Position numbers and translations under genes: made by a program | Shown here: positions 1-48,285 of the stretch, in pieces | Layout of the letters: the number at the start of each line of letters is the position of its first letter | Numbering within the stretch: position 1 is the first letter of the stretch | Assembly: GCA_001782015.1 (NCBI GenBank) | Contig: MFNJ01000056.1 | Span: forward strand, 1-51,090 | Direction of reading: 5' to 3' | From: Candidatus Levybacteria bacterium RIFCSPHIGHO2_01_FULL_36_15 | GTDB lineage: Bacteria; Patescibacteriota; Microgenomatia; Levybacterales; GWA1-39-11 | DNA length: 51,090 nucleotides | The notes under the pieces: model-generated | What the model saw: the letters and a program-made list of their open reading frames with translations, nothing else | What the model was told of the DNA's origin: nothing | Databases searched by the model: none

Positions 1-972
1 AACAATCCATGGAATTAAAAACCACAAACCAAATAAATAACATATCGTAAATGTATTTTTTGTAGGTTTTTTTAGATAAAAAATAATAACGAAAAGTGGG
101 TAAATTAAATATTTTACAGGTTTTAAGATTTTGAAAAATATGGTTGCTTCAGCCTCAATGAAGGCATCTGTTACCATTTGGATAAATCTCACAAAATGAA
201 ATCCGTGGTAATAAGTATTTATATAACCTGACAAATGCTTACTTGAGGATGCTTTTGAATTGAGTTCATAAATAATATTTGGGATAAGGAAAATTACAAA
301 TAAAAGAACAGCGACTATGGAATATTTTAAGGTTTGAATTGTCTTTGGGAAAAAAGGGAGGGAAAACAATATCATTATTGGAAAAAATACTGCGGTAAAA
401 TGCATACTGAAAGAAAATCCCAAAGCCACGGCAAGCAATAATAAATATTTTTCTTTACCTGTAATAACTTTATATAGAGAATAAAAAATTATAAGAGATA
501 AAGGGAATATGAAATTAACCGGCCATTGTATTCTATCAAAACCAATAGCATAATAAGAAACCGTATGAATAAGTACTGCAATTAAAGCAGTTCTGAAAGA
601 AAATACTTTATTAGCTACATAAAATAGTGTTACAAAAGTGAATATGCTTGCTACACCGGCTGCCCAACCAGCAGCAATAGGATCAAGCTTTGTAATAAAA
701 TAAAAAATTGATAAATAATAATAATAAAATGGTCCTACATAAAATCCTGAATTTCCTTTTGCTACCGGACCAACCAGTAATAATTTATGATCCAGAATAA
801 AATCTTTCATTGCCCAAGCGTTAGTTACCTGGTCAAAACTGAAAGGAGTTCTGTTCTCCAAATCATAAAATCTCAGAAAAATGAAAAAGGAAAAAATTAC
901 TAACAAAAGTAACCACTTACTATTTTTTAATAATATTAATCTTAAATCAAGAATAACTTCTTTAACTGGCAT
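1..972 (-). CDS. GT-C membrane glycosyltransferase, GT39/PMT-like (partial, runs off left edge)
   Basis: This reading frame is absent from the ORF track because its stop lies outside the window, but it is open for 324 codons from an ATG at 972 to base 1. It begins MPVKEVILDL, has a first hydrophobic segment around residues 20-34, then an outer loop with RTPFSFDQ (D47, Q48) and GPFYYYYLSIFYF. Several more hydrophobic segments follow, as expected for a GT-C enzyme that takes a sugar from a polyprenyl-phosphate carrier and works outside the membrane. It is clearly paralogous to the next gene (FGFDQ, HGPVFYYFLSLAY). The usual catalytic Asp-Glu pair of the PMT/ArnT family is Asp-Gln here. It starts 4 nt after the preceding gene stops, so it is the promoter-distal member of a tandem array. 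The C-terminal part is missing. Confidence 0.85.
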   Translation of the reverse strand, partial: MPVKEVILDLRLILLKNSKWLLLLVIFSFFIFLRFYDLENRTPFSFDQVTNAWAMKDFILDHKLLLVGPVAKGNSGFYVGPFYYYYLSIFYFITKLDPIAAGWAAGVASIFTFVTLFYVANKVFSFRTALIAVLIHTVSYYAIGFDRIQWPVNFIFPLSLIIFYSLYKVITGKEKYLLLLAVALGFSFSMHFTAVFFPIMILFSLPFFPKTIQTLKYSIVAVLLFVIFLIPNIIYELNSKASSSKHLSGYINTYYHGFHFVRFIQMVTDAFIEAEATIFFKILKPVKYLIYPLFVIIFYLKKPTKNTFTICYLFGLWFLIPWIV

Positions 973-976
973 AAAA

Positions 977-2488
977 TTAATGCATTATTCGTTTTTGGAC
1001 TATTAAGCCGCTTGGAAGTACTTCAGTCTTTTCTATTGTACCATCTTTTATAACAGTCTCAAGCCAGCCATTATAAGACCATGGTTTTCCAGGATCTTTT
1101 TCCATCAACAAATAAAATAATCCTTTCTTTTCTTTGTGCGGAATATATCCATACCTATTTTTACCATACCATAACACAATGTAATCATAGGGATATGTGT
1201 AAACCGGTGGACTGAAAACCAATAAACCGAATTTCTCACCTTTTGAATCCTTATATATGTAGTCGATTGCGTCCACTCTTCCTTTTATTTTTGCGTCGCC
1301 CCCGTAATCGAAATAATCTTTTATAAAAGTATTTATAGAAAATGGTATAAACTGCAAAATACTAATTATACCTATCAGTAGAAAAAGCAACGAAAAATAG
1401 AATTTTCTTTTTTTATATGAAGAAAAAAATCCGTACGAAAAAAGGAGAATGATAGACAAGTTGAGATGTGCCAGATAGTAAACGTATACAGGTATCCTGA
1501 AAAACAGGTAAACAAAAAAGGTAATCAGAGGAAGAATCAGTAAATACAATATAAAGTACTTCAGTTGCTTATTGCTTTCCTTATAAATCATAAAAACAAC
1601 AACTATAAATATGAATAAAATAATTAGCCACCCGGGCAATAAACTCTGTTTGGGAAAAGTGTCAGAATAGCTGTAAGTAAACGAAGATATAATATCCTTG
1701 CTTGAATTTAGTATTTTATGGATATCGATTAAATTATTTTTGGGGTTGGAAAAGTGATTAAATAATCCTCTGGATGCCTGAAAATTATGTTTAATATCAA
1801 AAATAATCATAGGCGAAAAAGAAAAGACATATCCTGCGATTAGATATAAATACTGTTTAAGTTTTTTAAACCTTAAGACGAATAAACAATATAAAGCCAA
1901 ACCCAAGGAAACTGGTACAGCCGTAGCAAGTTCAAAGTTATAAATAAAACCTGAGAAAAAAGAAGAAAAAAATATATATTTGGCTCCCCGATTAATATAA
2001 TAAGTAAAATAGAATGCAAGAAGGATAAAGAAAGAAACCGGATTTGGACTCCATAAAAAGCGTGATTGTGAAATTAAAGGAGGAGAGATAGATACTAATA
2101 TTGCGGCAAATAAACCAAAGAGATAGCCAAATAATTTTCCGACAAGAAAAAAAGTAAAAATAATAGTTGCAAGTCCAAATATAAACATGAGCACTATTCC
2201 CCCATATGGATCCCCATTAAAAAATATGTAGGCTAGGCTTAAAAAGTAATAAAAAACCGGTCCATGGAAAATTCCCGTAAAACCGGCAGAACCCGAACCT
2301 ATTTCAGATCCAATAAGTCTTAACTTGTGATTTAATACCATTTCCCTTACAACCAAATACTCTCTCCCCTGATCAAACCCAAATACATAGTTATGATTCA
2401 AAAGTTCAGTAGATCTGAGAATTACTCCTGCTGAAATTGCCAAAATTAATATCAGGATTTTCAACAAATTACTTTTTTGTATAAGCAT
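977..2488 (-). CDS. GT-C membrane glycosyltransferase, GT39/PMT-like, DQ subtype
   Basis: A polytopic protein of about 500 residues, most likely a polyprenyl-phosphate-sugar-dependent glycosyltransferase. After a first membrane helix the outer loop reads YVFGFDQGREYLV, where the family normally has Asp-Glu. A second conserved stretch, GIFHGPVFYYFLSLAY, matches the adjacent partial paralogue. A soluble tail follows the last helix. The ORF track starts at a GTG (2503), but an in-frame ATG at 2488 has GGAG nine bases upstream, so I prefer 2488; the GGAG then lies at the end of the preceding gene. The acceptor and sugar cannot be told from sequence. It is the fourth of five GT-C genes transcribed in series. 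Confidence 0.85.
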   Translation of the reverse strand: MLIQKSNLLKILILILAISAGVILRSTELLNHNYVFGFDQGREYLVVREMVLNHKLRLIGSEIGSGSAGFTGIFHGPVFYYFLSLAYIFFNGDPYGGIVLMFIFGLATIIFTFFLVGKLFGYLFGLFAAILVSISPPLISQSRFLWSPNPVSFFILLAFYFTYYINRGAKYIFFSSFFSGFIYNFELATAVPVSLGLALYCLFVLRFKKLKQYLYLIAGYVFSFSPMIIFDIKHNFQASRGLFNHFSNPKNNLIDIHKILNSSKDIISSFTYSYSDTFPKQSLLPGWLIILFIFIVVVFMIYKESNKQLKYFILYLLILPLITFFVYLFFRIPVYVYYLAHLNLSIILLFSYGFFSSYKKRKFYFSLLFLLIGIISILQFIPFSINTFIKDYFDYGGDAKIKGRVDAIDYIYKDSKGEKFGLLVFSPPVYTYPYDYIVLWYGKNRYGYIPHKEKKGLFYLLMEKDPGKPWSYNGWLETVIKDGTIEKTEVLPSGLIVQKRIMH

Positions 2489-2492
2489 AAAT

Positions 2493-4172
2493 TTATTCTC
2501 CACTAACTATTGCTATAGCTGGTTTGCCGTTGAGGTATGGTATTGTTTTAATAAGTTTTGCCTCAGAAGGAAAATCACCGGGTAAACCAACGTATAAAAA
2601 TTTATTATTCTTTTTCTCTTCATTCCAGTCAATCGGCCTGAATGAATAATTGGAAAAACCTTTGTGGTTTTCCTTAAAACCTCCGCTTATGGTTCCACCT
2701 GATTTTAGATAAGCAACAGGATCATACTTCAGGTAAAAAAGGAAAAATATATATGACTGATCAAGCGGAGCCTTATTTGAGACGATAATTTGATCATAAT
2801 TGCCCGCAATAGGCTTGAGGTAAGAAACCACCTGCTTATAACCATACTGCCAGTCCTGAGAATAATAGTAGTTTTGCTGAATGAAATACTGATTAAGATA
2901 ATAAGCGATATTCAAAACAATAATCAAAAGTATAAACAGGGTAACTGGAATTTTATAGTATATTTTTCCAAGATTCCTAATTCCTTTAATTAACTCATAA
3001 GCTCCAAAAGCAGAAAAGATCTGAAACAATGGAAGAAAATTCAGAGTTCTGACAGCGTGAGGAACTCCACTAGTAATAGATGCAGGTATAGGAACGACTA
3101 AAAACCAAAAAAATATAGCCATTTTTATTTTCCTATTAAAATTTCCAAACATCAGTGTATAAAATCCAACTAATATTAACGGAAGTTCGAATAAATATAT
3201 TATTCCCATATAAGGCGCATGATGTCTTGCAATGTCACCTGTAATAAATAACCAGTTAAGATCAAAATGAGATATGTATCCCCCAACCATTGCTTTAAAA
3301 TACTCTATTCTTCTATTGTCAAATACCAGACTTAAATATTTCCCGTTATTTTTATCAAACATAACTTTTTCTGAATTCCGTTTTAGAAATTCTGTCTGAT
3401 CTGAAAAAACGCTTACACCTTTTGCTCTCATTAGCGCATTTTGGTTAGTAATTATGGAAATAATCATAGGAAGTGTTATAACAACTCCAGTTATAAACGA
3501 TAACAATAACCATTTTTTACCGATCTTTAAGATGTCACAGCGGAAAATAATAAAAAATGACAAAAAGAATAAAGGTACAAAAACTTTCTCGCTTTGATAC
3601 ATATAGATGTTTAAGGCGCCTAGAAAGACAGACAGAGCCAAAAAATATGGCTTCCTAAGTCCTTTTAGAAAAAACAAGGCGGAAAAAATATTAAAAGAGG
3701 CTGCTACACTGGACTCAAAAGCAATGCGGGAAAACTGTAAGTGCCATGGGGAAATAGATAAAAATGCGGCCGAAAGCAAGGCGAGAGTTTCCTTATATTT
3801 ATTGCTTTTTCCTTGTTTATCTTCGATTGACAAAATTTCTTTTACTAATAAATAAGTAGCAAAAACCGCCAGCACTCCAAATATAATTGCCGGAAGGCGA
3901 ACTGAAATTATATTTAAATCAAAAATTTTAATGAAAGGAATTATGAGATATGAGTAAAGGGCGGGTTTATAATCATCAAAAGAACGCAGCACTAAAGGCA
4001 TAAACTGCCCGTACTCATCTCTACCAGTTAATAATATGGAATATGCATTGTAGCCTAAGGCTGCCTCATCCCAGTCCGGTGACGGAGGAACGTTCCCTAC
4101 TTCCCACAGCCTCAACAATAAACCAAGAGCTAATATTAACAGAAGCAATAATAATTCCAGTTTTTTTCTCAC
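2493..4172 (-). CDS. GT-C membrane glycosyltransferase, GT39/PMT-like, DE subtype
   Basis: A 559-residue polytopic protein. Residues 5-21 form the first hydrophobic segment, followed by PDWDEAALGYNAYSILLTG, which carries the Asp-Glu pair (D35, E36) expected of the PMT/ArnT catalytic loop. Later stretches SPWHLQFSRIAFE and GVPHAVRTLNFLPLFQ recur almost unchanged in the next upstream gene, and the tail has the shared block DWQYGYKQVVSYL. The only useful start is GTG at 4172, since no Met precedes the catalytic loop; no clear Shine-Dalgarno is visible. The 3' end overlaps the longest form of the next gene by 11 nt. Likely function is transfer of one sugar from a lipid-phosphate donor on the outer face of the membrane; donor and acceptor are unknown. 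Confidence 0.87.
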   Translation of the reverse strand: MRKKLELLLLLLILALGLLLRLWEVGNVPPSPDWDEAALGYNAYSILLTGRDEYGQFMPLVLRSFDDYKPALYSYLIIPFIKIFDLNIISVRLPAIIFGVLAVFATYLLVKEILSIEDKQGKSNKYKETLALLSAAFLSISPWHLQFSRIAFESSVAASFNIFSALFFLKGLRKPYFLALSVFLGALNIYMYQSEKVFVPLFFLSFFIIFRCDILKIGKKWLLLSFITGVVITLPMIISIITNQNALMRAKGVSVFSDQTEFLKRNSEKVMFDKNNGKYLSLVFDNRRIEYFKAMVGGYISHFDLNWLFITGDIARHHAPYMGIIYLFELPLILVGFYTLMFGNFNRKIKMAIFFWFLVVPIPASITSGVPHAVRTLNFLPLFQIFSAFGAYELIKGIRNLGKIYYKIPVTLFILLIIVLNIAYYLNQYFIQQNYYYSQDWQYGYKQVVSYLKPIAGNYDQIIVSNKAPLDQSYIFFLFYLKYDPVAYLKSGGTISGGFKENHKGFSNYSFRPIDWNEEKKNNKFLYVGLPGDFPSEAKLIKTIPYLNGKPAIAIVSGE

Positions 4173-4176: not shown

Positions 4177-5820
4177 CTAAATTGTATAAGCTACTAAAGA
4201 AATTTCACCATTCAATAAATAAAATGTCTTTAATATTTTTGCTTCGCCCGGAATGTTATAAGGCACATCAAAATATAAATTTTTCCTGTTATCTCTGTTT
4301 GCTTTTACATCTTTTGGGAAAGAATATTTTCCAAAATCATTAATATGTACAAAACCAAATACCTCGCGCTGTATGTTTGCTTCTGACCTGAAATCCTGCG
4401 GATTGTACTGTAAATAGAAGAGAAGGTATATATATGGCCTTCCCAAAACATTAGTAAAATACACTTTATCATATTGCGTTTGAACTTGTTTTATATACAA
4501 AATCGCATCTTTATATCCGTATTGCCATTCGCTTGAGTACAGACGCGGATAATGCAAAAAATAATTATTTAAAAAATAAAATAAATTAAAAGCTATTATA
4601 ATAAACAACATTAATATTGCAGTTCTTTTCAAAATCATATTTTTCAGTCTGAAATTTAAAAAAGAAATAAAACTGTACAGTCCGAATGCCGAAAGTATTT
4701 GAAAAGTTGGGAGAGACGATTCTATTCTTAAAGCATGAGGTGTCTCACGAGCAGTTGCAGCAGGGATTATTGAAATAATAAGCCAGTAAAAAACTAACCA
4801 CCATCCTCCTTCTTTCTTGCGTATCAACAAAAATATACCGGCAATAAAAAAAGGAATTTCCCATAGATACATTTGCCCAACATCCTGAACAGAAAACTTA
4901 GGATTTCCGTCACCTTTAATAAATAAAAAGGAAGGATTAAAATTATCAAAGTAATGCCTTAAATACTCAACAGTATAGGCAAATCTTCTGTTATGAATAA
5001 TTTTTGACCAAACAGAATTGTAATCATTTTTTGTTTCCTGATTTATTCTTTCTATAACGTTAATATCTGAAAAAATATTTACTTCCTGGAATCTTAGTTT
5101 TGCCTGAGGAGTAACTAAAAATAAAAGCAGTGGAACAACTATTGCTACTCCTATAACAAAAGAGGCTAACAGCTGTTTTTTAAACTTAAGAAAGTTTTTT
5201 ATACATTTTATTAATAATCCTACCAAGAGAATAGGAACAACTATGCGAGCAGTGTTGAAAGTATACATAGATATAACAAATGAGATAACTGAAAGTGGCA
5301 ACAGCCACGGTATATATTTAGCTCTTAAAAACAGATAAACCCCAAGAACAATAAAAAACGTTGCAACATTTGCTTCAAAAGCGGCCCGGGAAAGAAGAAT
5401 ATGCCAAGGTGATATTGCCAGAATAAAAGAAGCTGTTAATCCAAGCTTTACATATCTATCCTCTTTTCTTGTTCCATCACTAAATAGATCTTTTGTTAAT
5501 AAAAATGTTAGAAAAACTGTGAGTGAACCTAACAATGCAGAGGCAAAACGTGTGGAAAATTCATTGAGCCCGAAAATTTTCACAGGCAGTACCGAAAGAT
5601 ATGCATAAACGGGAGGTTTAAAATCACCAAATGACTCAAGATAGGTAATAGGTAAAAACTTACCAAATTCATCTTTACTGTCAATACCTAAAGCATAGGC
5701 ATTATAACCCCAAGCTGCCTCATCCCAAGTTAATGATGGAGGGTTTTGGCCTAGCTGGAAGAAACGCAAAAAAACAGCCAATACCAAAATCAGAAACAAA
5801 AATAAATTAATTTTTCTCAT
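4177..5820 (-). CDS. GT-C membrane glycosyltransferase, GT39/PMT-like, DE subtype
   Basis: A 547-residue paralogue of the 2493-4172 product, arranged head to tail with it 4 nt apart. The catalytic-loop block is LTWDEAAWGYNAYALG (D33, E34), followed by DEFGKFLPITYLESFGDFKPP. The stretches SPWHILLSRAAFEANV and ETPHALRIESSLPTFQ match its neighbour, and the tail block SEWQYGYKDAILYI is also shared. ATG at 5820 lies inside the end of the upstream gene (14-nt overlap) with a weak GGAAAA eight bases or so before it, suggesting translational coupling. The pair looks like a tandem duplication whose members have since diverged, possibly to use different acceptors in one glycan (inference). Confidence 0.88.
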   Translation of the reverse strand: MRKINLFLFLILVLAVFLRFFQLGQNPPSLTWDEAAWGYNAYALGIDSKDEFGKFLPITYLESFGDFKPPVYAYLSVLPVKIFGLNEFSTRFASALLGSLTVFLTFLLTKDLFSDGTRKEDRYVKLGLTASFILAISPWHILLSRAAFEANVATFFIVLGVYLFLRAKYIPWLLPLSVISFVISMYTFNTARIVVPILLVGLLIKCIKNFLKFKKQLLASFVIGVAIVVPLLLFLVTPQAKLRFQEVNIFSDINVIERINQETKNDYNSVWSKIIHNRRFAYTVEYLRHYFDNFNPSFLFIKGDGNPKFSVQDVGQMYLWEIPFFIAGIFLLIRKKEGGWWLVFYWLIISIIPAATARETPHALRIESSLPTFQILSAFGLYSFISFLNFRLKNMILKRTAILMLFIIIAFNLFYFLNNYFLHYPRLYSSEWQYGYKDAILYIKQVQTQYDKVYFTNVLGRPYIYLLFYLQYNPQDFRSEANIQREVFGFVHINDFGKYSFPKDVKANRDNRKNLYFDVPYNIPGEAKILKTFYLLNGEISLVAYTI

Positions 5821-7450
5821 AAATTTTCCAGATCGGCCTCAATGGCTCTCCAACCTCATTTATTGTTGATGTTGGAAAAAACTTTTTATGACAGAAATCG
5901 GGTACTATATAAAGAGTGCTTCTGGGCAGAAATTGGCTTGGATCAAATTCTGTTTTGTCTATATCCCCAAAACAACTTTCCAATAACGTGAGCTTTCCAT
6001 ATTTTTTGGGCCAGGGGTCACTCCATAATTTTCTTATTTTGTCTGGCTCAAGCTTATTATAAATTCCGTATTGAAAAATAAACATAATACCTGGTTGGGC
6101 TATATAAATATTATCGTAACTCTTACCGTTTTTTTGCATATAAGTTACCATATCTTTACTGCTTCTGAACCAAGATTCCGCTCCGTAAATACTGTACCTG
6201 AAATGATACTGATATACATACTCTAATATTAAAAATGCATACACGGAAACAAAAGCAATTAATATTACCTTAGCCGGCAGTTTATTATTATTTTTTAACA
6301 ATAGATAAAAAGAGTAAATTCCGTAACCCACAATTATGGATAAAACCGGTATCAACATTGCTGATCTCATAACGTAACTTTTATCAATAACCAATGCGGA
6401 AGACAAAGGAGAAATTAATAAAAGAGAGAACAAAAGCAATTTAACTCTATTATTTTTCTCCCTCCAGAGAAAATATAATCCCACAATTAGTAAGGGCAAT
6501 TCCAATATATACATCACACCTCTATAGAAAGTGCCATATATTCCCCCAAGTCCTTCTGTTTCTCCGTATAAAAATAAAAATTGTGTTGAAAAGACCTCAA
6601 GGTAATTTTCTCTTATGACCCTAAGATAATACAGTGGTTTATTATTGAATATCTCGCGCACAAAAAAAGGCGCCGTATTTTTATCTCTTTCCCAATTGAC
6701 CATATCCGAAGCTTTCTTCGGCTCACTCCATAACAAAACGCTTTGTCTGCTAACATTTTGTTTGGAAGAAATAAATATAAAAGATATTAAGATAAAAATA
6801 TTTAGTAGAATGAATAGAATCAGTTCCTTTTTTCTTCTTAATAACCTGTCCTTATAGACAAAAATCAGTATTGGTATAAGAGCAAGATAAAATATTTTTG
6901 TTGCGTGATATGTATAGAAGCCAAAAAGAAAAGGAAGCACTGACCAATTAATATTTCCTTTTTCAGCATTTTTTAAAAATATAAATATCCCTAAAAGAAA
7001 GAAAAAAACAGCCACCGGCGTTTCATAAGCTATTCTAGTAATCTGCAGATGCCATGGTGAGACACTCATTACAAAGGCAGACAACAAAGCAATGTAATCA
7101 TTATTAAATAATCTTTTAGTAATAACGTACACAAGAACAATAGACAATATACCAGCAACGGCAAAAGGTAAACGACCCGAAGTGGGTGATAACCCTAAAA
7201 CCCTTATGAAAGGGGCTGTAAGGTAGATTGAAACCGGAGAAAAGGAATTATCCAAATTTATTGATAAAGGCAGAAATTCACCTGCAACATCGTGCCCCGT
7301 TTTTGAAATTGAGTATGTACTATATATTAATCCTGCTTCATCATTGGTTATGCCCGAAGGAACCGAACCTAATTCCCAAAGTCTCAGAAACGAAGCAAGA
7401 ATAATTATACTTACCAGGATCAATAATTTTATATTTTTAAATCTGACCAT
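5807..7450 (-). CDS. GT-C membrane glycosyltransferase, GT39/PMT-like, DE subtype
   Basis: A 547-residue polytopic protein, the more distant third member of the tandem set. The loop after the first helix reads SGITNDEAGLIYSTYSISK (D37, E38). SPWHLQITRIAYETPVAVF is the conserved block seen in its neighbours. Its tail differs, with several Cys residues (LESCFGD, VPDFCHKK) absent from the others. The preceding gap of 40 nt holds TACAAT seven bases before the ATG with no Shine-Dalgarno, so an internal promoter giving a leaderless transcript for the five GT-C genes is likely. Membership of the GT-C superfamily is secure; substrates are unknown. Confidence 0.87.
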   Translation of the reverse strand: MVRFKNIKLLILVSIIILASFLRLWELGSVPSGITNDEAGLIYSTYSISKTGHDVAGEFLPLSINLDNSFSPVSIYLTAPFIRVLGLSPTSGRLPFAVAGILSIVLVYVITKRLFNNDYIALLSAFVMSVSPWHLQITRIAYETPVAVFFFLLGIFIFLKNAEKGNINWSVLPFLFGFYTYHATKIFYLALIPILIFVYKDRLLRRKKELILFILLNIFILISFIFISSKQNVSRQSVLLWSEPKKASDMVNWERDKNTAPFFVREIFNNKPLYYLRVIRENYLEVFSTQFLFLYGETEGLGGIYGTFYRGVMYILELPLLIVGLYFLWREKNNRVKLLLFSLLLISPLSSALVIDKSYVMRSAMLIPVLSIIVGYGIYSFYLLLKNNNKLPAKVILIAFVSVYAFLILEYVYQYHFRYSIYGAESWFRSSKDMVTYMQKNGKSYDNIYIAQPGIMFIFQYGIYNKLEPDKIRKLWSDPWPKKYGKLTLLESCFGDIDKTEFDPSQFLPRSTLYIVPDFCHKKFFPTSTINEVGEPLRPIWKIYEKN

Positions 7451-7457
7451 CCAGTCT

Positions 7458-7463
7458 ATTGTA
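7458..7463 (-). promoter_or_regulatory. Probable -10 box (TACAAT), leaderless start of GT-C block
   Basis: TACAAT on the minus strand ends exactly seven bases before the ATG at 7450, the distance expected between a -10 box and the first transcribed base. No Shine-Dalgarno is present in the 40-nt gap and no convincing -35 is visible. The hexamer could occur by chance in such A+T-rich DNA; the repeated spacing elsewhere in the window is what raises confidence. Confidence 0.5.
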
Positions 7464-7490
7464 ATACAATTATATGAAATAGAATAATAT

Positions 7491-8201
7491 CTAATTATTT
7501 ACTTCTCTTTCCCATCTGGACAGATAATTTCCAGTTCTAAACTTATAAATATTTTTAATGAATTCCGTGTAGGTATGAATACTTCTGGTCGAACTGCCTC
7601 CAGCTCTGTCCAAATTTTTCATGCTGATTTCTTCAATAGACCAACCAAGCTTACTCATCTTTATTAGAAATTCCCCATCAATGAACGAGTCTCCCGATTG
7701 CAAATTCATTTTTTCCAAATATTCTCTTTTGAAGATTCTTGGACTGCCATTAGTATCAATCCAGAGCGTCCCAAAAACTATTTTCATGATAAGAGAAAAA
7801 CTCCATGAGGTAAAATCCCTTAACCATGACTCTCTTTTTCCTCTTTTCACTTTAACCAAATTAAACTTTCCTGAAATTGCCTCTTCCCAAAGAACAGGAA
7901 AAATTTCCATGTCAACCTGACCATCAGATGGCATATAACAAACATACTTTCCCTTTGAAAGCTGTAAGCCTTTTATAACAGCATTTCCATAACCCTTTAG
8001 AGAAACAGCGGGCACGACATATTTGCGGCTTTTGGAAAGACTTTTTATAATTTGGGGTGTTTTGTCCGAAGAGCCATTCTCAACCAATATGATTTCATGT
8101 CTGATTTTAAGATTATTAATTTTTTTCTCTATATCATCTAAAACCTGTTCAATAATATCTTCTTCGTTATGAACGGGAAGGATAAGGGAAAGTTCTATCA
8201 T
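7491..8201 (-). CDS. GT2 family glycosyltransferase (DPM-like)
   Basis: A 236-residue soluble GT-A enzyme. The N-terminal strand MIELSLILPVHNEED is typical of GT2. The first nucleotide-binding motif is ENGSSD (around 41-46) rather than DDGSxD, and the metal-site region is MPSDGQVD (around 90-97). A later block, NGSPRIFKREYLEKM, resembles the acceptor-side region of dolichyl-phosphate-mannose-synthase-like proteins. No C-terminal membrane segment is seen. Its ATG overlaps the TGA of the transketolase C half (ATGA), so the two are translationally coupled. Being the last gene of the SDR-transketolase operon and just before five GT-C genes, it is a good candidate to load the sugar made by that operon onto a lipid carrier; that link is inference. 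Confidence 0.85.
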   Translation of the reverse strand: MIELSLILPVHNEEDIIEQVLDDIEKKINNLKIRHEIILVENGSSDKTPQIIKSLSKSRKYVVPAVSLKGYGNAVIKGLQLSKGKYVCYMPSDGQVDMEIFPVLWEEAISGKFNLVKVKRGKRESWLRDFTSWSFSLIMKIVFGTLWIDTNGSPRIFKREYLEKMNLQSGDSFIDGEFLIKMSKLGWSIEEISMKNLDRAGGSSTRSIHTYTEFIKNIYKFRTGNYLSRWEREVNN

Positions 8202-9112: not shown

Positions 9113-9113
9113 T

Positions 9114-9932: not shown

Positions 9933-9942
9933 AAAATAAATT

Positions 9943-10899: not shown

Positions 10900-10912
10900 G
10901 ATAGATATTATA
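10885..10912. promoter_or_regulatory. Divergent, interlocked leaderless promoters around a shared CATG
   Basis: The minus-strand ATG (10,897-10,899) and the plus-strand ATG (10,898-10,900) share the palindrome CATG. On the minus strand TATAAT (10,907-10,912) is seven bases from its ATG, with TTGATT 18 bases further up. On the plus strand TAAAAT (10,885-10,890) is also seven bases from its ATG. Each promoter therefore lies inside the first codons of the opposite gene and neither mRNA would carry a Shine-Dalgarno leader. The motifs are seen directly; activity is inferred. Confidence 0.6.
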
Positions 10913-33513: not shown

Positions 33514-33649
33514 TTATAGATATTTTTCAAGGAACTCAATTTCTTTTTTATAAACCTCTTGTGCTATATCATACTCCCAGCGACTATGATCCTGATTTTC
33601 AAGAATCTTATAAAACTGGTTTTCTCTTAAGGATATCTATAGCGCTCAT
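33514..33649 (-). pseudogene. Frameshifted small ORF between a GT2 and a PTPS-related gene
   Basis: An ATG overlapping the TGA of the upstream GT2 (ATGA) opens MSAIDILKRKPVL and then stops. In another frame, right up to a TAA five bases before the next ATG, the sequence encodes QFYKILENQDHSRWEYDIA and continues for about 18 more residues rich in Lys and Glu, which looks like real protein. Removing one A from the AAAA run at the junction joins the two into one 44-codon ORF that fits exactly between its neighbours. It may be a decayed gene, a gene fragment, an assembly error or a frameshift site. I do not recognise the family. Confidence 0.5.
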
Positions 33650-40009: not shown

Positions 40010-41560
40010 TTAGGGGTAAATTTTTTTAGTTAAAAACAACAATATTAAAAAGGACAAGATTGAAAGTACGTCTGAAAATAGCCTTAAAGAAGTTTCGCCA
40101 AAAAATAATTTTACATTGTGATTTCCCGGAGGAATAATAATATCCATTACCCCATTATCATTTTTATAATTTATATTGATTGCTCTACTGTCAATGTATG
40201 CCTGCCAACCGGGATAGTAAATTGTGTTAATACGGACTTTTAACTGATCATGCCCTGCAGAAGAAAAAGTTATTTTATTGGAATTGTAAATTATATTGTT
40301 CAACTGTCCGGCGCCGTTTAACAGTTCTACCTTATTTTTAAAATGTTCAAAAGGCATATTTTTTACCCAAATCGGCATATATTCATTCTGTACAGTTGTT
40401 GTAGCCTCATTAGTAGAATAAAAATTTTCTCCCTTATCAAAAAATTTTGAAGGCGCTAAATACTCAGAAGAATTGAGCAGTAAAACAAAGACAAGAATAC
40501 ATATCACTATCCATTTTTTGGAATTGGTAAAAAATGAAACAATATAAGAGGATAAAAAACTTAACGCAATAATTAAATAAGAGAGCAACCTGAAAGGAAA
40601 CTGAACAACAGACGAAGGAATAAAATTCCATAAGATCATGCTTGCCTCGGAGGAAAAAAAGATTGAAAAAACACTTATGACTACAAACAAAATAAGAAGA
40701 TCGGAGAACTTGTTTCCTTTTAACAACTTGTATTTTGAAAACATAAATAAGATTGCTGAGGAAAAAAGAACAATAAAACTTATGGATCCCACCAAGGGAA
40801 TAGGAGCAAAATAATCTGTTATGTTTGAAATTTGGGTGGTAGAAAATCTGGTATAAGGCAATTCAAAAATTGCCGGTATAGTGAAAAATGAGGACATTAA
40901 AATACCAATGATGAAACTGAAAATAATATTTTTGGCTGAAATTTTTCTTCTCAAAAAAGCGTAAATGAATAAAAGAGGGATAAAAAATGCCGCAAGCGTA
41001 TTGTGGGAAATCATAAGTAAAAAAATTCCGCCGGAGATTAAAAAAATATTTTTTCTTTCAATCATCCATAATATGAGTGGAATAAAAAGCAGAGCAAATA
41101 TTTCACCAACTGATCCTCTCTTGTAAAGGTCAAACAGGTGATAAGGAAGATATAAATAGAATAAAGCTCCCACAGCTGCTGTAGTTTTTTCAAAAATTGT
41201 GGAAAGCCACAAAAACGCAAAAAGCGCAGAGCCTATCATTGACACAACTAAAACAGCTTTTATGCTGTTAACAAATCCAAGTCCAAGAGCATGAAAAACT
41301 TCGGAAAAATACATAAATCCTGGATATAAAAAGTTAGCAACAGGATAACCATAGCCCTGATTTAGCCTACCTAGAAATCTCACTGGGAATTGCCCGTCCC
41401 GCAAACTCTCATGGAAAGCCGATAATCTGATTATCATCCATTCACCATCGTCTGATTCAAAAAAACCGGAATGCAGAAGAGGAATAATTACCGGTATAGA
41501 CAATACCAGCAAAATTAGCATTACAAGTAGTGTGTTTTTATTTCGTTTCAACCAGGACAT
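40010..41560 (-). CDS. PTPS-related membrane protein (GT-C-like)
   Basis: A 516-residue polytopic paralogue. The outer-loop block is SGFFESDDGEWMIIRLSAF, with Asp-Asp (D37, D38) where the two sister proteins have His-Asp, then FPVRFLGRLNQGYGYPVANF, LYPGFMYFSEVFH and LYLPYHLFDLYKRGSVGEI. The tail has YYPGWQAYIDSRAINI and IPPGNHNVKLFFGETSLR. It is preceded by the clearest Shine-Dalgarno of the window, GAGGAG seven bases before the ATG, and its start lies 23 nt inside the end of the GT39-like gene upstream. It ends a coupled three-gene unit. Confidence 0.84.
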   Translation of the reverse strand: MSWLKRNKNTLLVMLILLVLSIPVIIPLLHSGFFESDDGEWMIIRLSAFHESLRDGQFPVRFLGRLNQGYGYPVANFLYPGFMYFSEVFHALGLGFVNSIKAVLVVSMIGSALFAFLWLSTIFEKTTAAVGALFYLYLPYHLFDLYKRGSVGEIFALLFIPLILWMIERKNIFLISGGIFLLMISHNTLAAFFIPLLFIYAFLRRKISAKNIIFSFIIGILMSSFFTIPAIFELPYTRFSTTQISNITDYFAPIPLVGSISFIVLFSSAILFMFSKYKLLKGNKFSDLLILFVVISVFSIFFSSEASMILWNFIPSSVVQFPFRLLSYLIIALSFLSSYIVSFFTNSKKWIVICILVFVLLLNSSEYLAPSKFFDKGENFYSTNEATTTVQNEYMPIWVKNMPFEHFKNKVELLNGAGQLNNIIYNSNKITFSSAGHDQLKVRINTIYYPGWQAYIDSRAININYKNDNGVMDIIIPPGNHNVKLFFGETSLRLFSDVLSILSFLILLFLTKKIYP

Positions 41561-43268
41561 AAGCGATCTCCTCTATAGGAAAACTTATAACTTTTTCTTT
41601 AACTGAAAAAACTACCGGTTTTTTAGGATAATAAAATGTTACCAGGGGCGGAATTTCCAATGGCTTTCTGTCAGCTGTAGTAATAAATAACATCCTTTTC
41701 TTTTTGTAGTCATTTGGCCAGTCTACGTCCCTAAATTCGTATTTTCCAAAAGATCTGACAAAACTAAACCCTTCCGAATCATCGGGGTCACGGATAACCG
41801 TATTTTGGAAACCCAAAGGAGTATAAGAGAGGTAAAATAAAAGGGATGTGTACATAAATCCTGCATTTTTGTCAAAAATAATTTTGTCATATTTATGCTC
41901 GTTGTCTTTTATGTATAATGAAACACTTTTGTCCTCCAGTCTCCAGGCTTTTGCATAAAGAATAGGGAACCTGAAATAGTAAGAGATAAAATAATATAAA
42001 ACGCTAAATAAAACAATAAAGCCAAAAAAAACTCCTGAAAAAATCTTTACAGCGTTATTAAATTTTTTTATTAAAGACAATAAGTACAAAGCGCCGATTG
42101 CGGAAAAAACTTGAAAAGGTATGACAATAAAATAGCCTCTTGTTGCATGAGGAACCTCTTTGCTTAAACTCAATACAAGAAAAGAAATTATTGCCCAATA
42201 AATGAAAAGATTTAAGTCTTTAATTTTATTTTTAAATATGCTTATCAATCCTAAGATAACCAGTGGAAACTGAAACAAATAAAACATGCCCACTCCTATT
42301 CCCTGGTTTCCATGAGCTGTACCGGAAACAAAGAAAAATGCAGGAGATAAAGAACTCACAACGTTCTCCAAATACTGCCAGACCAGCATAAATGTGTCAT
42401 TAAAAAATGCTACGGGAAATATTCCCGGTAAATCCGCAAGATAACTTTTGAATTCTATTATTTTTGACTGTATATCAGAGCTTGTTATCAGCGCGCCTTT
42501 GCTGGACAGCAGTCCCGAGGGAAAAAATAAGGTTGTCAAAAACGGCAGCAGTAAAAAAACAAAAAAAATGCCCAGCGCAAAAATAGTTTTCTTGGGAATT
42601 ATTTTTACCTTATCAAAACAAACAATAATAAGGCAAGTTAAAAGCAGTGGGGCAAGTAATCTGGTAACATTATAAGAATACAGTGATAAAGCAAAACTTA
42701 ACACTGAAATAAACAAATAAATAGGTTTTGTTTTTTCAAATTTTACAAACATCCAAACTCCAAATAGAGCAAAAAATAAAGCTATGTTAACCTCAAAAGC
42801 GGCTCTTGAAAAATGCAGGTGCCATGGGTTTATGGCAAGCAAAAAACTTGAGAGACCGGCCATTTTTTTATTTCCAGAAATATCTTTAACTAAAAAATAT
42901 AAAATCACCACAGACACACTACCCAGTAAAGCGGAGGAAAACCTTACGGAAAACTCATTCAGATTGAATATTTTAACTGATAAGGCTGTCAGGTAAAAAT
43001 ATACAGGCAGTTTGTAGTCTCCGAAGGATTTAAAATAAACGGGTAAAAATTTTCCATATTCATCTTTTCCTGTCTGTAAAATTGAATAAGCATTGTATCC
43101 GATAGCGGATTCATCCTGAGAGAAACCAAAAGGTATTTGGCCCAACTTATAAAACCTGAGTAAAAAAGACAGAATAAATATAAATATAAGAAATAAATAG
43201 AACCTGTTATTTCCCGCTAATACCCTTCTGGTTGCCACAGCAAGATATTCTTTCATAAATAACATCAT
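41538..43268 (-). CDS. GT-C membrane glycosyltransferase, GT39/PMT-like, DE subtype
   Basis: A 576-residue polytopic protein, the distant fourth copy of the DE-type family at 2,493-7,450. The catalytic-loop block is GFSQDESAIGYNAYSIL (D52, E53), followed by KDEYGKFLPVYFKSFGDYK. SPWHL appears as NPWHLHFSRAAFEVNIALF, then EVPHATRGYFIVIPFQ, and the tail has AWRLEDKSVSLYI. The start region MMLFMKEYLA offers three Met codons; the first overlaps the upstream gene by ATGA. Similarity to the 4,177 product is high enough to suggest a duplication within the locus, now 37 kb apart. Confidence 0.88.
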   Translation of the reverse strand: MMLFMKEYLAVATRRVLAGNNRFYLFLIFIFILSFLLRFYKLGQIPFGFSQDESAIGYNAYSILQTGKDEYGKFLPVYFKSFGDYKLPVYFYLTALSVKIFNLNEFSVRFSSALLGSVSVVILYFLVKDISGNKKMAGLSSFLLAINPWHLHFSRAAFEVNIALFFALFGVWMFVKFEKTKPIYLFISVLSFALSLYSYNVTRLLAPLLLTCLIIVCFDKVKIIPKKTIFALGIFFVFLLLPFLTTLFFPSGLLSSKGALITSSDIQSKIIEFKSYLADLPGIFPVAFFNDTFMLVWQYLENVVSSLSPAFFFVSGTAHGNQGIGVGMFYLFQFPLVILGLISIFKNKIKDLNLFIYWAIISFLVLSLSKEVPHATRGYFIVIPFQVFSAIGALYLLSLIKKFNNAVKIFSGVFFGFIVLFSVLYYFISYYFRFPILYAKAWRLEDKSVSLYIKDNEHKYDKIIFDKNAGFMYTSLLFYLSYTPLGFQNTVIRDPDDSEGFSFVRSFGKYEFRDVDWPNDYKKKRMLFITTADRKPLEIPPLVTFYYPKKPVVFSVKEKVISFPIEEIAYVLVETK

Positions 43269-44767
43269 TCACTTACAACTTGATAAATGCTAAGCCATGC
43301 GTTCCCTGCCCCTTTTTGGTATTTAGCAATAAGCCTGACAGGCCAGCCAAAGGGAGGATTACTGGTTTGGTTAAAAATAAAATAAACGGGCATTTGCTTT
43401 GCTTTTTCAACAAGGTCCGGCGGAATATTGTCATGAATCGGCCAAATACCTCTCTTATCAATATTTTTATTCTCACCAAGATATATTTCTACGGCATAAG
43501 TGGGCAAAGATCCGAATGTTCCCTGAGAAGCAACATATATTTTACCGGTGCTTGCCTGAAACTTTAGAAATTCAATCATTTCATTTATTCCCCCGCCTGC
43601 CGGCCAATCGTTTACATACTGCTGAAGATCAGCATACGGTATGGGAGCATGAGCAAAATTTGTAAGAATATAATAATCAGACCTAAGCATCAGTAAAATG
43701 AACGCAAAAAACAATAATGCTTTCAGTATGTTTTTTTTCATTTTATCAAGAATATAAATTAAAGAAAATGATGCCAAAATAAGAAGAGGCATTGTCATAA
43801 AAAGAATAAATCTTGGATACAGCGTTTTACCAAATAGGGCCAAAGACACAAACGGAATAAGAAACCACGACAGAAGAAGCAATTTTTCTCCTAAAAATTT
43901 CTTTTTTCCGATAATAAAAGAGGCAAAAGTAAAAAACAGCAGAGGAAATGTTGAATAAGTTACAAGCCAGTCTATAACTCCTTTTAAATTGCCTTCCAAA
44001 AAGGTGAAGGGGTGCTGCACCCATTCTGAAAATGGATAAGCAAATGTAGCATTCTTTTCAGCTATTATATGAAAAAAGGGAGATAGTCTTAAAATAGAAT
44101 AGTAAAATAATGCTAAACCTGCCGACAAAAGCGCCAAGATTGACCATTTTATGAACTGTCTTCCAATGTGTCTTTCTCTTAAATTAAACAGAAGAAGAGA
44201 GAAAGGAAGAAGATAGACAAAGAAAAATGCATTACTTTTTGTTAATGTTCCAGCTCCCAGAACCATACCAAGAATAAGCGCTATATCCAGCCTTTTCAAA
44301 CGCACCAACATGACTTCAAAATAAAGTGCCCATACGGCAATGGATGCAACAAGAGAGTCATAAAGCGCCATCCTGTCATAAACAAGAGAAAAAGGATAAA
44401 ATACATAAATCAATGAAGCAGCAAAACCAATTTTTTTATTTTTAAATATTTCTGTCGCAAGAAAAAATAAACCTATCATTGTGAAAAATCCCGCTCCAAG
44501 GGATACCAGACGTCCTGCAAGAAGCGGATCTTGAACTACTTTCATAAAGATCATGTCAAACCAGACAAATAAAGGCTGTTTTCCATCGGTGAGGGATATA
44601 AACCTCCACCCAGCATCCTGTTTTGCGATCTGCGACCAGCGCGTGTATATGGCCTCATCCGTGAACATAGGGAGGCTTAAGATGTTGTAAATACGGGTAG
44701 AAAAAAATAAAAGTATGAGTGAGAAAGCAAAAATTATATCTTTTGCGTATTTTTTTAGAGAAACCAT
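43265..44767 (-). CDS. GT-C membrane glycosyltransferase, GT39/PMT-like
   Basis: A 500-residue polytopic protein. The loop after the first helix reads LPMFTDEAIYTRWSQIAKQD (D37, E38), then DGKQPLFVWFDMIFMK, typical of bacterial PMT_2-type enzymes. VYPFSLVYDRMALYDSLVA is the second conserved block, with Asp residues near the predicted donor site, and TKSNAFFFVYLLPFS follows. It is not a close relative of the DE tandem set. TATAAT lies eleven bases before its ATG, so it probably heads a three-gene unit with the two genes that follow. Sugar and acceptor are unknown. Confidence 0.86.
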   Translation of the reverse strand: MVSLKKYAKDIIFAFSLILLFFSTRIYNILSLPMFTDEAIYTRWSQIAKQDAGWRFISLTDGKQPLFVWFDMIFMKVVQDPLLAGRLVSLGAGFFTMIGLFFLATEIFKNKKIGFAASLIYVFYPFSLVYDRMALYDSLVASIAVWALYFEVMLVRLKRLDIALILGMVLGAGTLTKSNAFFFVYLLPFSLLLFNLRERHIGRQFIKWSILALLSAGLALFYYSILRLSPFFHIIAEKNATFAYPFSEWVQHPFTFLEGNLKGVIDWLVTYSTFPLLFFTFASFIIGKKKFLGEKLLLLSWFLIPFVSLALFGKTLYPRFILFMTMPLLILASFSLIYILDKMKKNILKALLFFAFILLMLRSDYYILTNFAHAPIPYADLQQYVNDWPAGGGINEMIEFLKFQASTGKIYVASQGTFGSLPTYAVEIYLGENKNIDKRGIWPIHDNIPPDLVEKAKQMPVYFIFNQTSNPPFGWPVRLIAKYQKGAGNAWLSIYQVVSE

Positions 44768-44819: not shown

Positions 44820-46289
44820 TCAGAACCACTCCTCGGTTGCATGGTAAATGAAACTTGGATTAGCAAAATACCAATCTTTATTTAATGACCCTTTAATTCC
44901 GTAGCTACCTAAATTAACTATTTTGTAAGTATCTTCATTATTTAATACTGCCTCATGTCCTTCCAGCAGATCTTTAGGTCCAACACCAATTGCCATACCT
45001 TTGTCATCTATTGCTCCCGCAGCTTCCAAATATAATGCCAGAGGCAGACTTCTTACCGTACTTTTATATTTATAATCATAAATAGCGAACTTCTTACCCG
45101 GATATTTCTGCAACAGAAATTTTGAGTTTGAATCTGCATAATATGATGTGTAATTTGTGGCATTCTTAATTTCAGTAAAGTCTTTACTTAAACTGGCAAG
45201 AACTATAATTGCAATGGACAATAATGCGATTAAACTGCTTCTTTTAAACAATTCAAAAATCACGACTGCGGACAATAAAAGAACAACAGGATGAGTAAAA
45301 ACAAGATAGCTTTCAAAAAGAACACTTCTGGTATATCTAAGCAGAATAAGCATGGAAGCAAAACCTGCAGTTATAAGAATCCATTCTTTGGAGATTGATT
45401 TTTTTATAATTTTTAATCCTAATACAATAGCAACACCCAGCATTAAGAACAACCCGATTATTTTTTGCCCTCCAATTATGTGCGCCCATTGCTGCGGCCA
45501 GAAAGACATAATATAAGTTGACCAGCGCCTGCCCAGCACATCCAAAGAAATTCTGTATTGATCATGAAGATAATAATAAAGCATATTTTTTATATTAAAA
45601 AAGTTGTGTCCGAAATCAGAAATTATAATCGGAAGAAGCGGTAAAACAATACCACAGACAAGAAGTATTATGTGTTTTAACCTGAAATACCTAAGAATCA
45701 GTAATGTAAGTAAAACTATAAAAAATAAGGCAACTCCCTGCAAATGTATGGAAGCGGCCATGCTAGCAAAAAACCCCAATAAAAATATATATTTTGCCTT
45801 CTTTTCTCTTATGTATCTTACTCCGGACCAGATTGCCGCAAGAGATAACAATGAAATAGGAGACTGATTTGTAAGATTTGTTCCCTGCGTAATTTGTGCT
45901 GATGAAACCGCAGTTAATATTCCAACAATAATTCCAAATTTTTTATCAATAAGCTCTGCTCCCAACTTAATCATTAAGTAAACAAAAAGAACATACAATA
46001 GTGTTAAGAATACCCAGGGCGATATTACGGAATACGGATAGAAAACAGTTCCCAGCATAATAAACCAGTACCACTGCCCGCCGGTCTGAAACGGCCCCGC
46101 AGAAGAAAATGGCCCCAGAAGAGGAAGTTTGCCGGAAGAAAGCGCGTGCCTTGCAATAAGAGCATCATGCGCCTGATCATACGCAAGGCCAAACCTGTTC
46201 TGGTAATTATAAAATCTCAAAACAAAAGCAAGCAAAACTATAAGAATTGCGGAAATCCCAAACCAGTGCAGTTTAACTTTTTTTAACAT
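44820..46289 (-). CDS. GT-C membrane glycosyltransferase, GT39/PMT-like, DQ subtype
   Basis: A 489-residue polytopic protein. The first outer loop, RFGLAYDQAHDALIARHAL (D38, Q39), puts it with the two DQ-type proteins at the left end of the window. TGGQWYWFIMLGTVFYP corresponds to their GPVFYY block. SAQITQGTNLTNQSPISLL and ASMAASIHLQGVALFF follow. The short C-terminal outer domain ends in NPSFIYHATEEWF. It overlaps the upstream GT-C gene by 17 nt. As with the others of its type, replacement of the catalytic-loop Glu by Gln may mean a different mechanism or substrate. Confidence 0.84.
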   Translation of the reverse strand: MLKKVKLHWFGISAILIVLLAFVLRFYNYQNRFGLAYDQAHDALIARHALSSGKLPLLGPFSSAGPFQTGGQWYWFIMLGTVFYPYSVISPWVFLTLLYVLFVYLMIKLGAELIDKKFGIIVGILTAVSSAQITQGTNLTNQSPISLLSLAAIWSGVRYIREKKAKYIFLLGFFASMAASIHLQGVALFFIVLLTLLILRYFRLKHIILLVCGIVLPLLPIIISDFGHNFFNIKNMLYYYLHDQYRISLDVLGRRWSTYIMSFWPQQWAHIIGGQKIIGLFLMLGVAIVLGLKIIKKSISKEWILITAGFASMLILLRYTRSVLFESYLVFTHPVVLLLSAVVIFELFKRSSLIALLSIAIIVLASLSKDFTEIKNATNYTSYYADSNSKFLLQKYPGKKFAIYDYKYKSTVRSLPLALYLEAAGAIDDKGMAIGVGPKDLLEGHEAVLNNEDTYKIVNLGSYGIKGSLNKDWYFANPSFIYHATEEWF

Positions 46290-47457
46290 ATTTTTTTAGA
46301 AAAACACCCTTCAGAAAAAGTATTAAAACTGTCAGAAATGAAGACCCTATGGCAATAATATTCATAAAGGACAGGACCTGCGGAACCGGCTTATCCCAAT
46401 TTCCAAGATATATAAAAGGCGCATATTGAAAAATTGAAAGTATGGAAAAAATAATTACCGGTATAAATATAAAATAACTTTTTGAAATATACGCGGCAAA
46501 CGGTAAAGCATACAAAAGGTACCAGGGTTGAAAATTTGTCCTAAGACATGCAAGTATAACGGGAATAATCATGGATACAAATGACAGATAAAAAAACTGT
46601 TTGTAATTCTCTTTATTTCTGTTACTCAATAAATAATAAATGTAAACCGGTATCAAAAACACCGTAGCAAACTTAATTCCAATAGACAAGGCAAGAGCCA
46701 GGAAAGAATAAAATAATTTTTTTTCCAACAAAAGATAAACGGACAAAATAGCAAAAAACATCATTACAATATCGTTATGCGCGGACACCAATGATTCGGT
46801 TAAAATAAGCGGATTTAAAGCAAAAAATGCCAGCCCGAATAACGGATTAACTGATTTAGTTTTAATAAGCACTTTTTCTATAAAATAAGCGCTTCCGATA
46901 AAGCTTGAAAGAACCAACAGTTTAAATAAATAAAAAGTTAATAGAAAATAATTTAAACCGATAAAAGAAAATGGAACCGTAAGGATAAGCCATACTGGAC
47001 CATAAGGATATGTTCTATGGGTCCAGTGCATAAATGAAAGCATGGGATCACCAGGAAAGTCAAGAGCTTTATGAACGTAAGGATTTTGGTTATAATAAGT
47101 TATTATCTTTGCGTCAAAAATATAATTAAATAAATCATAAGAAAATGCGTTGTAGGAAAGAAACAAAATAGCGCTAACTGTAAGAATTATTGTCCACACT
47201 TCTCTTCTTTGCAGTTTGCCCAATTTGATAAGTTTTAAAGTCCAAAGAAAAAGTGAAAAAATAAATATCACCGCGAATGAAAAAATATAAGTTGACAACG
47301 GCCGCTGGAAATATCCAATGTACTGAAAGAATTTTTGTATTTCCTGCCATATTGAAAGGCGCGACAAGGTAAGACTAAGATCTACCTGGGTAAAAGAATA
47401 AAGCGAGATAATAACAGATGCAATAATCCAGCTAATAAACAGAATTTTTTTACCCAT
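46273..47457 (-). CDS. GT-C membrane glycosyltransferase, GT87-like
   Basis: A 394-residue polytopic protein. The first outer loop contains NYIFDAKIITYYNQNPYVH and MHWTHRTYPYGPVWLILTV, then the hallmark LNPLILTESLVSAHNDIVMM, whose NPL...AHND block is shared by prokaryotic mannosyltransferases of the GT87 and MptB type. SIGIKFATVFLIPVY and TNFQPWYLLYALPF are further marks of the group. It should use a polyprenyl-phosphate sugar at the outer face. It is the first gene after a 63-nt gap in which I see only weak inverted repeats (AATCT/AGATT) and no clear promoter. Confidence 0.8.
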   Translation of the reverse strand: MGKKILFISWIIASVIISLYSFTQVDLSLTLSRLSIWQEIQKFFQYIGYFQRPLSTYIFSFAVIFIFSLFLWTLKLIKLGKLQRREVWTIILTVSAILFLSYNAFSYDLFNYIFDAKIITYYNQNPYVHKALDFPGDPMLSFMHWTHRTYPYGPVWLILTVPFSFIGLNYFLLTFYLFKLLVLSSFIGSAYFIEKVLIKTKSVNPLFGLAFFALNPLILTESLVSAHNDIVMMFFAILSVYLLLEKKLFYSFLALALSIGIKFATVFLIPVYIYYLLSNRNKENYKQFFYLSFVSMIIPVILACLRTNFQPWYLLYALPFAAYISKSYFIFIPVIIFSILSIFQYAPFIYLGNWDKPVPQVLSFMNIIAIGSSFLTVLILFLKGVFLKKYVKKS

Positions 47458-47520
47458 ACATGTTGTTAAATCTTAAAACCTGAATCTAAAAACTTTCAGA
47501 TTTGAAATGTAGTTTTGATC

Positions 47521-48285
47521 TTAACTATATATTCCTTTTAAAATATTTGATCTTATTTTAAAAAGTTCCAGCAGACCTTCCAGTGAATCTCTTATTGGAC
47601 TTACTCTTCTTGTTTCAACATAGAGCCATTCTACAGGTACTTCCTTTATTTTAAAACCCATGTTGCCTGCTATATATAAAAGTTCCACGTCAAAACCTGC
47701 CGTAACCGATGAGCCTTTTATTTTAGAAAAGCCGTGATGTATTTTGGAAATTTTTGAGAAAACATCATGAGCTGATTTTTTGGTAAAAACTTTAAAACCG
47801 CACTGGGTGTCTTTAATGCCATTTAATCCTACGAGCATTGATCTTAAAGTAATCATACCCTGAGCCATAATGAGTCTGGTGAAAGGCGCACCGCGTCTTT
47901 TGCTGCTTCTTGAACCTATCACAACATCATAACCGTTGTTAAAGTAAGGCAACAGTTTTTCAATTTCTTCTATGGGTGTTGCCTGGTCCATATCGGTAAA
48001 CAAAATAAAATCTCCTTTTGCGTGTAAAACACCGCTTGTAACCGCACCGGCTTTACCCAAATGATTATTTTTTAATATCCTGAACTCGTTATGATTTTCT
48101 TTTACAAATTTTTCTACAAATTCACGGCTTCCGTCATCGGATCCGTCATCCACAACAATAACCTCATAAGAAAAATTTTTCCTTTTCTTGCTCAAATAAC
48201 TTTTAATCTTATCGAGTGTTCCTTTTTGCAGATTCGCCATTTCATTGTATGAAGGAATCACCACAGAGAGCAGAAAATTATCCAT
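47521..48285 (-). CDS. GT2 family glycosyltransferase, ALG5/DPM-like polyprenyl-phosphate sugar synthase candidate
   Basis: A 254-residue soluble enzyme. SVVIPSYNEMANLQKGTL, YEVIVVDDGSDDGSREFV, LGKAGAVTSGVLHAKGD and ILFTDMDQATPIEEIEKLL place it with ALG5/DPM-type synthases; the last resembles the TDADLATP motif of ALG5. IKDTQCGFKVFTKKSAHDV and GFDVELLYIAGNMGFKIKEV are the acceptor-side blocks. A good promoter, TTGTTT-N17-TATAAT, lies just upstream. It stands directly before the GT87-like gene, and the two could form a donor-synthase and transferase pair (inference). Confidence 0.88.
   Translation of the reverse strand: MDNFLLSVVIPSYNEMANLQKGTLDKIKSYLSKKRKNFSYEVIVVDDGSDDGSREFVEKFVKENHNEFRILKNNHLGKAGAVTSGVLHAKGDFILFTDMDQATPIEEIEKLLPYFNNGYDVVIGSRSSKRRGAPFTRLIMAQGMITLRSMLVGLNGIKDTQCGFKVFTKKSAHDVFSKISKIHHGFSKIKGSSVTAGFDVELLYIAGNMGFKIKEVPVEWLYVETRRVSPIRDSLEGLLELFKIRSNILKGIYS

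Follow-up and report, generated by a model that had tools for sequence, protein, structure and literature searches.

What does a bacterium with a reduced genome build with 18 GT-C glycosyltransferases encoded almost side by side, and is such an array peculiar to one genome or typical of a lineage? The question is raised by a 51,090 bp stretch of DNA (positions 1 to 51,090 of contig MFNJ01000056.1, here called the window) from Candidatus Levybacteria bacterium RIFCSPHIGHO2_01_FULL_36_15 (1.37 Mb genome in 60 contigs, 92% complete), the first 48,285 bp of which form the locus considered here. The preferred reading, to which a probability of about 0.6 is given, is that of a conserved envelope-glycan locus whose product would be a core exported by a Wzx-type flippase, then lengthened by GT-C enzymes on the outer side of the membrane and transferred by a ligase encoded away from the locus. 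The envelopes of Patescibacteria probably mediate attachment to other microbes and their chemistry is almost unstudied; a locus that occupies some 50 kb in a genome of 1.4 Mb and retains the order of its core genes from family to family points towards a single major surface polymer that can be tested for. The ribosomal proteins uL30 and bL9 were found in 0 of 21 genomes with positive controls, a loss that we take to fit a Microgenomates-like member of the Patescibacteria (candidate phyla radiation).

GT-C glycosyltransferases of the locus

Proteins of the window were annotated with Pfam, counting the PMT/PMT_2, YfhO, PTPS_related, GT87, GT2, GT4 and Wzx families, and polytopic topology was judged from hydropathy. 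The tally of 18 GT-C proteins comprises eight of PMT/PMT_2, four of YfhO, three of PTPS and three of GT87/ALG type, with uneven evidence, next to nine GT2 and three GT4 enzymes and one Wzx-type flippase. These are the counts given by an initial annotation made from the window alone, whose list is accurate: its GT2 and GT4 numbers match Pfam, its GT-C numbers hold with Pfam, profiles and structure models, and the profile searches that it proposed recovered PMT/PMT_2 in eight open reading frames (ORFs), YfhO in four, PTPS_related in two and GT87, below cut-off, in one. In what follows genes lie on the minus strand unless marked (+), and "relatives" are the seven genomes of the close comparison set (seven genera from two families), compared with the window by reciprocal best hits over the matching region.

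Among the PMT_2-type proteins, PMT3 (2493–4172; 29.7 bits; orthologues at 50–60% in 6/7 relatives), PMT4 (4177–5820; PMT 42.4 bits; 55–62% in 6/7) and PMT7 (43265–44767; 46 bits; 46–63% in 6/7) are conserved. PMT6 (41538–43268; 49.2 bits) is present in 3/7 relatives, and PMT1 (1–972; 35.4 bits; invariant D47), which runs past the contig end, has orthologues at 46–50% in three. PMT5 (5807–7450; 44.2 bits) has no reciprocal match in the seven relatives, and the scores of PMT2 (977–2503; 21.4 bits; weak orthologues) and PMT8 (44820–46289; 22.5 bits; one orthologue) fall below the PMT_2 cut-off. Of YfhO type are Yfh2 (16809–19193; 115.7 bits; 33–50% in 7/7 relatives; invariant D64), Yfh4 (29447–31801; 85 bits; 47–55% in 7/7 and conserved in the taxonomic order; invariant D68), Yfh3 (24099–26405; 58.2 bits) and the inserted Yfh1 (13139–15544, +; 58.8 bits; no reciprocal match in the relatives). 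The predicted structure of Yfh3 (predicted local distance difference test, pLDDT, 62) has ArnT as its best PDB match and AftA also among its fold matches; neither the Yfh3 profile nor PMT6 found a match when PDB sequences were searched. PTPS1 (31825–33510; 42.5 bits) and PTPS2 (38268–39965; 62.3 bits) complete the proteins that score above their family cut-offs.

Three of the 18, X516, X414 and X448, gave no Pfam match at E 0.001. X516 (40010–41560; invariant D38) has no Pfam family above cut-off, and its alignment with the PTPS profile (E 2.8e-80) spans the whole protein. The protein at 46273–47457, conserved in 7/7 relatives (one at only 34%) with an invariant D108, gave a sub-cut-off GT87 match (23.1 bits) and also matches MptA/MptB models (NCBIfam TIGR03459, E 3.2e-13). 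Its profile is in turn matched by that of X414 (15554–16798; E 5.5e-10), a protein conserved in 5/7 relatives with invariant D95 and E101, which has no direct family match; two of the six members of its family match GT87 (E 1.7e-7). The predicted structure of X414 (pLDDT 75; best PDB match E 3.2e-3, probability 1.00, template modelling score 0.54) resembles GPI mannosyltransferase I, oligosaccharyltransferase, ALG9, ALG12, ALG6, PimE, AftB and ALG3. The weakest of the 18 is X448 (11800–13146, +), an inserted and probable GT-C protein whose support is a partial match between its profile and that of the PMT group (E 1.3e-7), with Alg6_Alg8 reaching only E 0.87. Ortholog alignments revealed an early-loop acid that is invariant in 13 ortholog groups, among them D33-E34 (PMT4), D35-E36 (PMT3), D37-E38 (PMT7) and D52-E53 (PMT6) in the PMT type and H33-D34 in both PTPS1 and PTPS2. 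From family and profile matches and structure models, all 18 polytopic proteins can be tied to the GT-C superfamily, with a strength that varies from one to the next and is lowest for X448.

Conservation, gene order and discordant histories

The comparison with sister genomes that the initial annotation had proposed showed that the window is collinear with the matching region of all seven relatives, with 18–26 reciprocal best hits per genome and an order agreement (|Kendall tau|) of 0.76–1.00 in six of them and 0.43 in the seventh (G029). A distant set of ten genomes from five families was picked for carrying Yfh3, whose presence there is therefore by construction; in 10/10 of them PTPS2, Wzx (36127–37575; Polysacc_synt_3, 148 bits), GT2g (35222–36130; PDB match to GmaR, E 1.7e-15), GT2e (28696–29445), GT4c (26412–27479) and Yfh3 stand in identical order, with insertions. 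X516, the galactofuranosyltransferase-like GT2f (33646–34563; PDB E 6.8e-8) and GT2d (23126–24091) are each kept in 9/10. PTPS2, Wzx and these five Pfam-assigned GT2 and GT4 enzymes also occur in 7/7 relatives. When the whole fetched region is considered, some of the distant loci retain the order well; rearrangement of the outer parts of the locus has abolished it in G043 and G067 (tau close to zero). The segments that are not conserved are 5807–15544 (PMT5 to Yfh1), PMT8, most of 19285–22344, where Pfam assigns GT4a (19285–20442; one orthologue), GT2b (20429–21073; no reciprocal match in the relatives) and GT4b (21106–22344; matches at only 22–24%), and two proteins with neither a family match nor a relative in related loci, the inserted soluble orphan X250 (27859–28611) and X216 (34570–35220), which has one N-terminal membrane segment.

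Yfh3 serves as a marker of the locus. Its profile, searched against 187 genomes of the class, separates a distinct group above 640 bits in 52 of them, the next matches lying below 600; the positive genomes span 12 families among the matches listed, and a phylum-wide sample gave no match above 640 bits outside the class. A lon protease gene marks the end of the locus in G005 and G040 as well as on the contig of the window. With 31 PMT_2 matches in the 1.37-Mb genome, about 1.1 would be expected per 48 kb and nine were observed in the window; since 17/17 annotated related loci carry 11–22 GT-C ORFs within at most 48 kb, such a concentration is the rule in the lineage. Each of 41 genomes of the order has 5–40 PMT_2 matches (median about 20), and YfhO is present in 31/41, the other ten having no match, so GT-C abundance is a lineage trait and the array is less striking for a reduced genome than had been supposed. 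The locus seems to be an old gene cluster that characterises the lineage and not one genome alone, because it recurs in the same gene order across many related families. The initial suggestion of a very varied glycan fits poorly with this core order, though wzx alleles and inserted cassettes do vary; like the statement about missing enzymes taken up below, it was limited by the view of a single window.

Gene content, conservation and order are observed directly, and so is a discordant history of wzx. In quick trees of 18 genomes (LG+G4), Yfh3 groups every family together. In the Wzx tree, by comparison, the window, G002 and G005 from one family (f1) join G029 and G040 from another (f2), and G003 (f1) joins G026 and G028 (f2); f1 as a single clade is rejected (approximately unbiased, AU, test, p 1e-93). 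The GT2g tree is also mixed across families (p 0.008). Because Yfh3 follows the families while the two wzx classes cut across them, the simplest reading suggested by these trees is that wzx was exchanged in place; an old duplication followed by losses is a possible, less simple alternative.

Predicted route of synthesis and competing explanations

Four of the nine GT2 enzymes have their best PDB matches among DPMS, ArnC and GtrB, all of which are polyprenyl-phosphate-sugar synthases: the inserted GT2a (7491–8201; GtrB, DPMS and ArnC), the conserved GT2c (22394–23107; DPMS, E 1.9e-22 over residues 1–233; 52–66% in 7/7 relatives), GT2h (37562–38275; ArnC, E 1.4e-16, with PgfS, ArnC and AglJ among the best NCBIfam models; 5/7) and GT2i (47521–48285; DPMS, E 9.2e-17; reciprocal matches in 6/7, four at 61–68%). 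Given this resemblance, donors for the GT-C enzymes are probably produced by the locus itself. In 13 of 18 loci (window included), wzx and a PTPS-type GT-C gene flank a GT2 gene; in the window the flanked gene is GT2h, between PTPS2 and wzx, and of ArnC/GtrB type.

The window was initially said to hold a single flippase and neither ligase nor Wzy, which stands for the window and fails for the genome. Wzy_C was detected neither in the window nor among ten unlabelled ORFs of the far loci; elsewhere in the genome there are eight Wzy_C matches, including a TPR-bearing ligase-type protein of 784 aa, and a Wzy_C protein of about 750–900 aa recurs in most relatives. Two initiating phosphoglycosyltransferases (PF02397) are also encoded elsewhere. 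A GtrA-type domain resides on another contig (387-aa frame, G000:C23:24795-25922), where its neighbour is a PMT_2 gene; 31/31 genomes searched have GtrA, which probably marks an older three-component system. An STT3 oligosaccharyltransferase was sought in the genome and rejected, the sole weak match (24.9 bits, at the cut-off) being a GT-C cross-match on PTPS1.

From the GT-C array, the DPM-type GT2 enzymes, the collinearity, the core order and the enzymes found elsewhere, we infer the direction of synthesis, the sugars, a flippase for monosaccharide donors, the ligase and the acceptor as follows. Cytoplasmic GT2 and GT4 enzymes would assemble a short polyprenyl-linked core, which the Wzx-type protein would flip across the membrane. 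In parallel, the DPM/ArnC/GtrB-like GT2 enzymes would form polyprenyl-phosphate monosaccharides that are then flipped, and the GT-C enzymes would use these donors outside the membrane, extending and decorating the core stepwise; 12 of them are conserved in at least 5/7 relatives and six are less conserved or private. A ligase-type enzyme encoded elsewhere may hand the product to a final acceptor, which could be a lipid, the wall or a surface protein. Addition in steps outside the membrane had already been put forward as the main route, and as a main part of the logic it gains support from the GT-C nature of the array and the DPM/ArnC/GtrB-like enzymes, by extension from known GT-C biochemistry.

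Several points weigh against this route. The structure models are modest (pLDDT 75 and 62) and gave no fold match with E < 0.001; for X448, PMT2, PMT5, PMT8 and Yfh1 no acid is shown to be invariant, the candidates having been picked by eye; and donor or acceptor specificity is not readable from GT-C sequences. Pairwise distances of the core genes agree weakly (Spearman 0.02–0.68), so that more than one history is represented among these genes. What ties the ligase to the locus is its presence in the same genome, and the locus is known here from its genes, so that enzymes, sugars and acceptor are predicted ones.

Among known systems, the trio of PTPS-type GT-C, GT2 and wzx genes resembles the Firmicutes multi-component transmembrane glycosylation systems CsbB-GtcA-YfhO, GtlA-GtcA-GtlB and GacI-GacK(Wzx)-GacL, Gram-positive sets in which a GT-A enzyme works with a GtrA- or Wzx-type flippase and a GT-C enzyme of the YfhO or PMT_2 family (PMC8035078). 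By similarity, the present locus shares the GT-A enzyme making C55-P-sugar, a GtrA/Wzx-type flippase and YfhO/PMT_2 GT-C enzymes. It differs from those systems, which have one GT-C each, by up to 18 GT-C proteins served by one Wzx, by its own cytoplasmic core enzymes, and by the position of the GtrA of this genome outside the locus.

The strongest competing explanation, still an unlikely one at about one chance in four by our judgement, is glycosylation of S-layer or pilin proteins, with the finished glycan transferred by the TPR-bearing Wzy_C ligase-type protein. The presence of that protein in this genome and most relatives would fit, as would a secreted-protein operon (SipW-type peptidase, LTD protein and a protein with a SipW-type signal) that adjoins the locus; against it, the ligase is unlinked to the locus, STT3 appears as weak GT-C cross-matches only, and the operon has no counterpart in related loci. 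A somewhat less probable explanation is a lipoglycan or wall polymer built stepwise like actinobacterial lipomannan or arabinogalactan, where almost every sugar would be attached on the outer side from polyprenyl-phosphate donors and Wzx would flip a small primer or the donors. PMC3485146 and PMC3123699 describe Ppm1, MptA/B, Emb and Aft in the biosynthesis of lipomannan, lipoarabinomannan and arabinogalactan. As in that pathway, a GT-C array alongside DPM-type synthases would act on polyprenyl-phosphate sugars, one window protein matches MptA/MptB, and AftA, AftB and PimE are among the fold matches. To our knowledge the actinobacterial genes are scattered and the YfhO and PTPS families are not prominent among them; here the genes are clustered with Wzx and GT2/GT4 enzymes, and the conserved cytoplasmic GT2d to GT2g, GT4c and Wzx suggest that a sizeable core is made inside.

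Less probable again is a strain-variable Wzx/Wzy locus of the ordinary O-antigen kind, in which many of the enzymes would add side branches. Wzx-dependent O-antigen and capsule loci likewise combine GT2/GT4 enzymes with Wzx, gain and lose cassettes (in the window, transketolase, epimerase and methyltransferase genes) and exchange wzx alleles, in keeping with the two wzx classes; the present locus departs from them in lacking Wzy, in having more GT-C than cytoplasmic glycosyltransferases and in a core order kept between families. An assembly collapse or a decayed paralogue array, which might be feared as the window begins at a contig end, is in practice ruled out because the same order is found inside other well-assembled genomes (e.g., the single-contig G047), besides the open frames and invariant residues.

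A core exported by Wzx and extended by GT-C enzymes is thus preferred over these explanations. A broader proposal, held with slightly less than even confidence, is that this is an undescribed, class-wide glycan of Patescibacteria, mostly added by GT-C enzymes outside the membrane, whose inner core and flippase were swapped in place between families while Yfh3-like outer enzymes were inherited vertically. No description of such a locus was found in the limited literature searched, and it is possible that the pathway has not been described previously. Yfh3, PTPS2, X516, GT4c, Wzx and the DPM-type GT2 enzymes are named genes with which it can be searched for.

Inserted genes, far-locus proteins and the neighbouring operon

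The insert in the left part of the locus includes two halves of a transketolase, C-terminal (8198–9112; not found in related loci) and N-terminal (9114–9932; relatives 39–48% identical in other phyla), a NAD-dependent sugar epimerase/dehydratase (9943–10899) and an S-adenosylmethionine methyltransferase (10898–11803, +), all recognised with Pfam. A scan of genome contigs with one transketolase half returned matches in distant phyla only, and similar genes in the same order as those at 8198–11803 are found in the actinobacterial contig L036; the four genes may form a mobile cassette that serves to make an unusual sugar, for which a branched one was considered.

Two further protein groups were noticed in the far loci. 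Proteins of about 560 aa that share a single hydrophobic segment at the N-terminus and lack any Pfam match form a family whose genes adjoin wzx in several far loci (L073:13028-14716, L075:13419-15164, L084:4121-5803); the family occurs also in G003. Polytopic proteins with an F-F/Y-F-Q-D-D-W-F-like motif and PMT_2 or DUF6056 matches (L073:10101-11477, L084:9015-10427) are probably further GT-C enzymes.

The operon that adjoins the locus (48334–50884) encodes an LTD-domain protein, a signal peptidase of SipW/archaeal type and a third protein that weakly matches the SipW-cognate signal, and resembles a secreted-fibre (TasA-like) operon. A role as carrier of the glycan was considered and set aside, since related loci lack the operon. 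A DDE transposase gene lies between the locus and lon on the same contig, just outside the window (L021:1201-2193), and the operon may have arrived with it.

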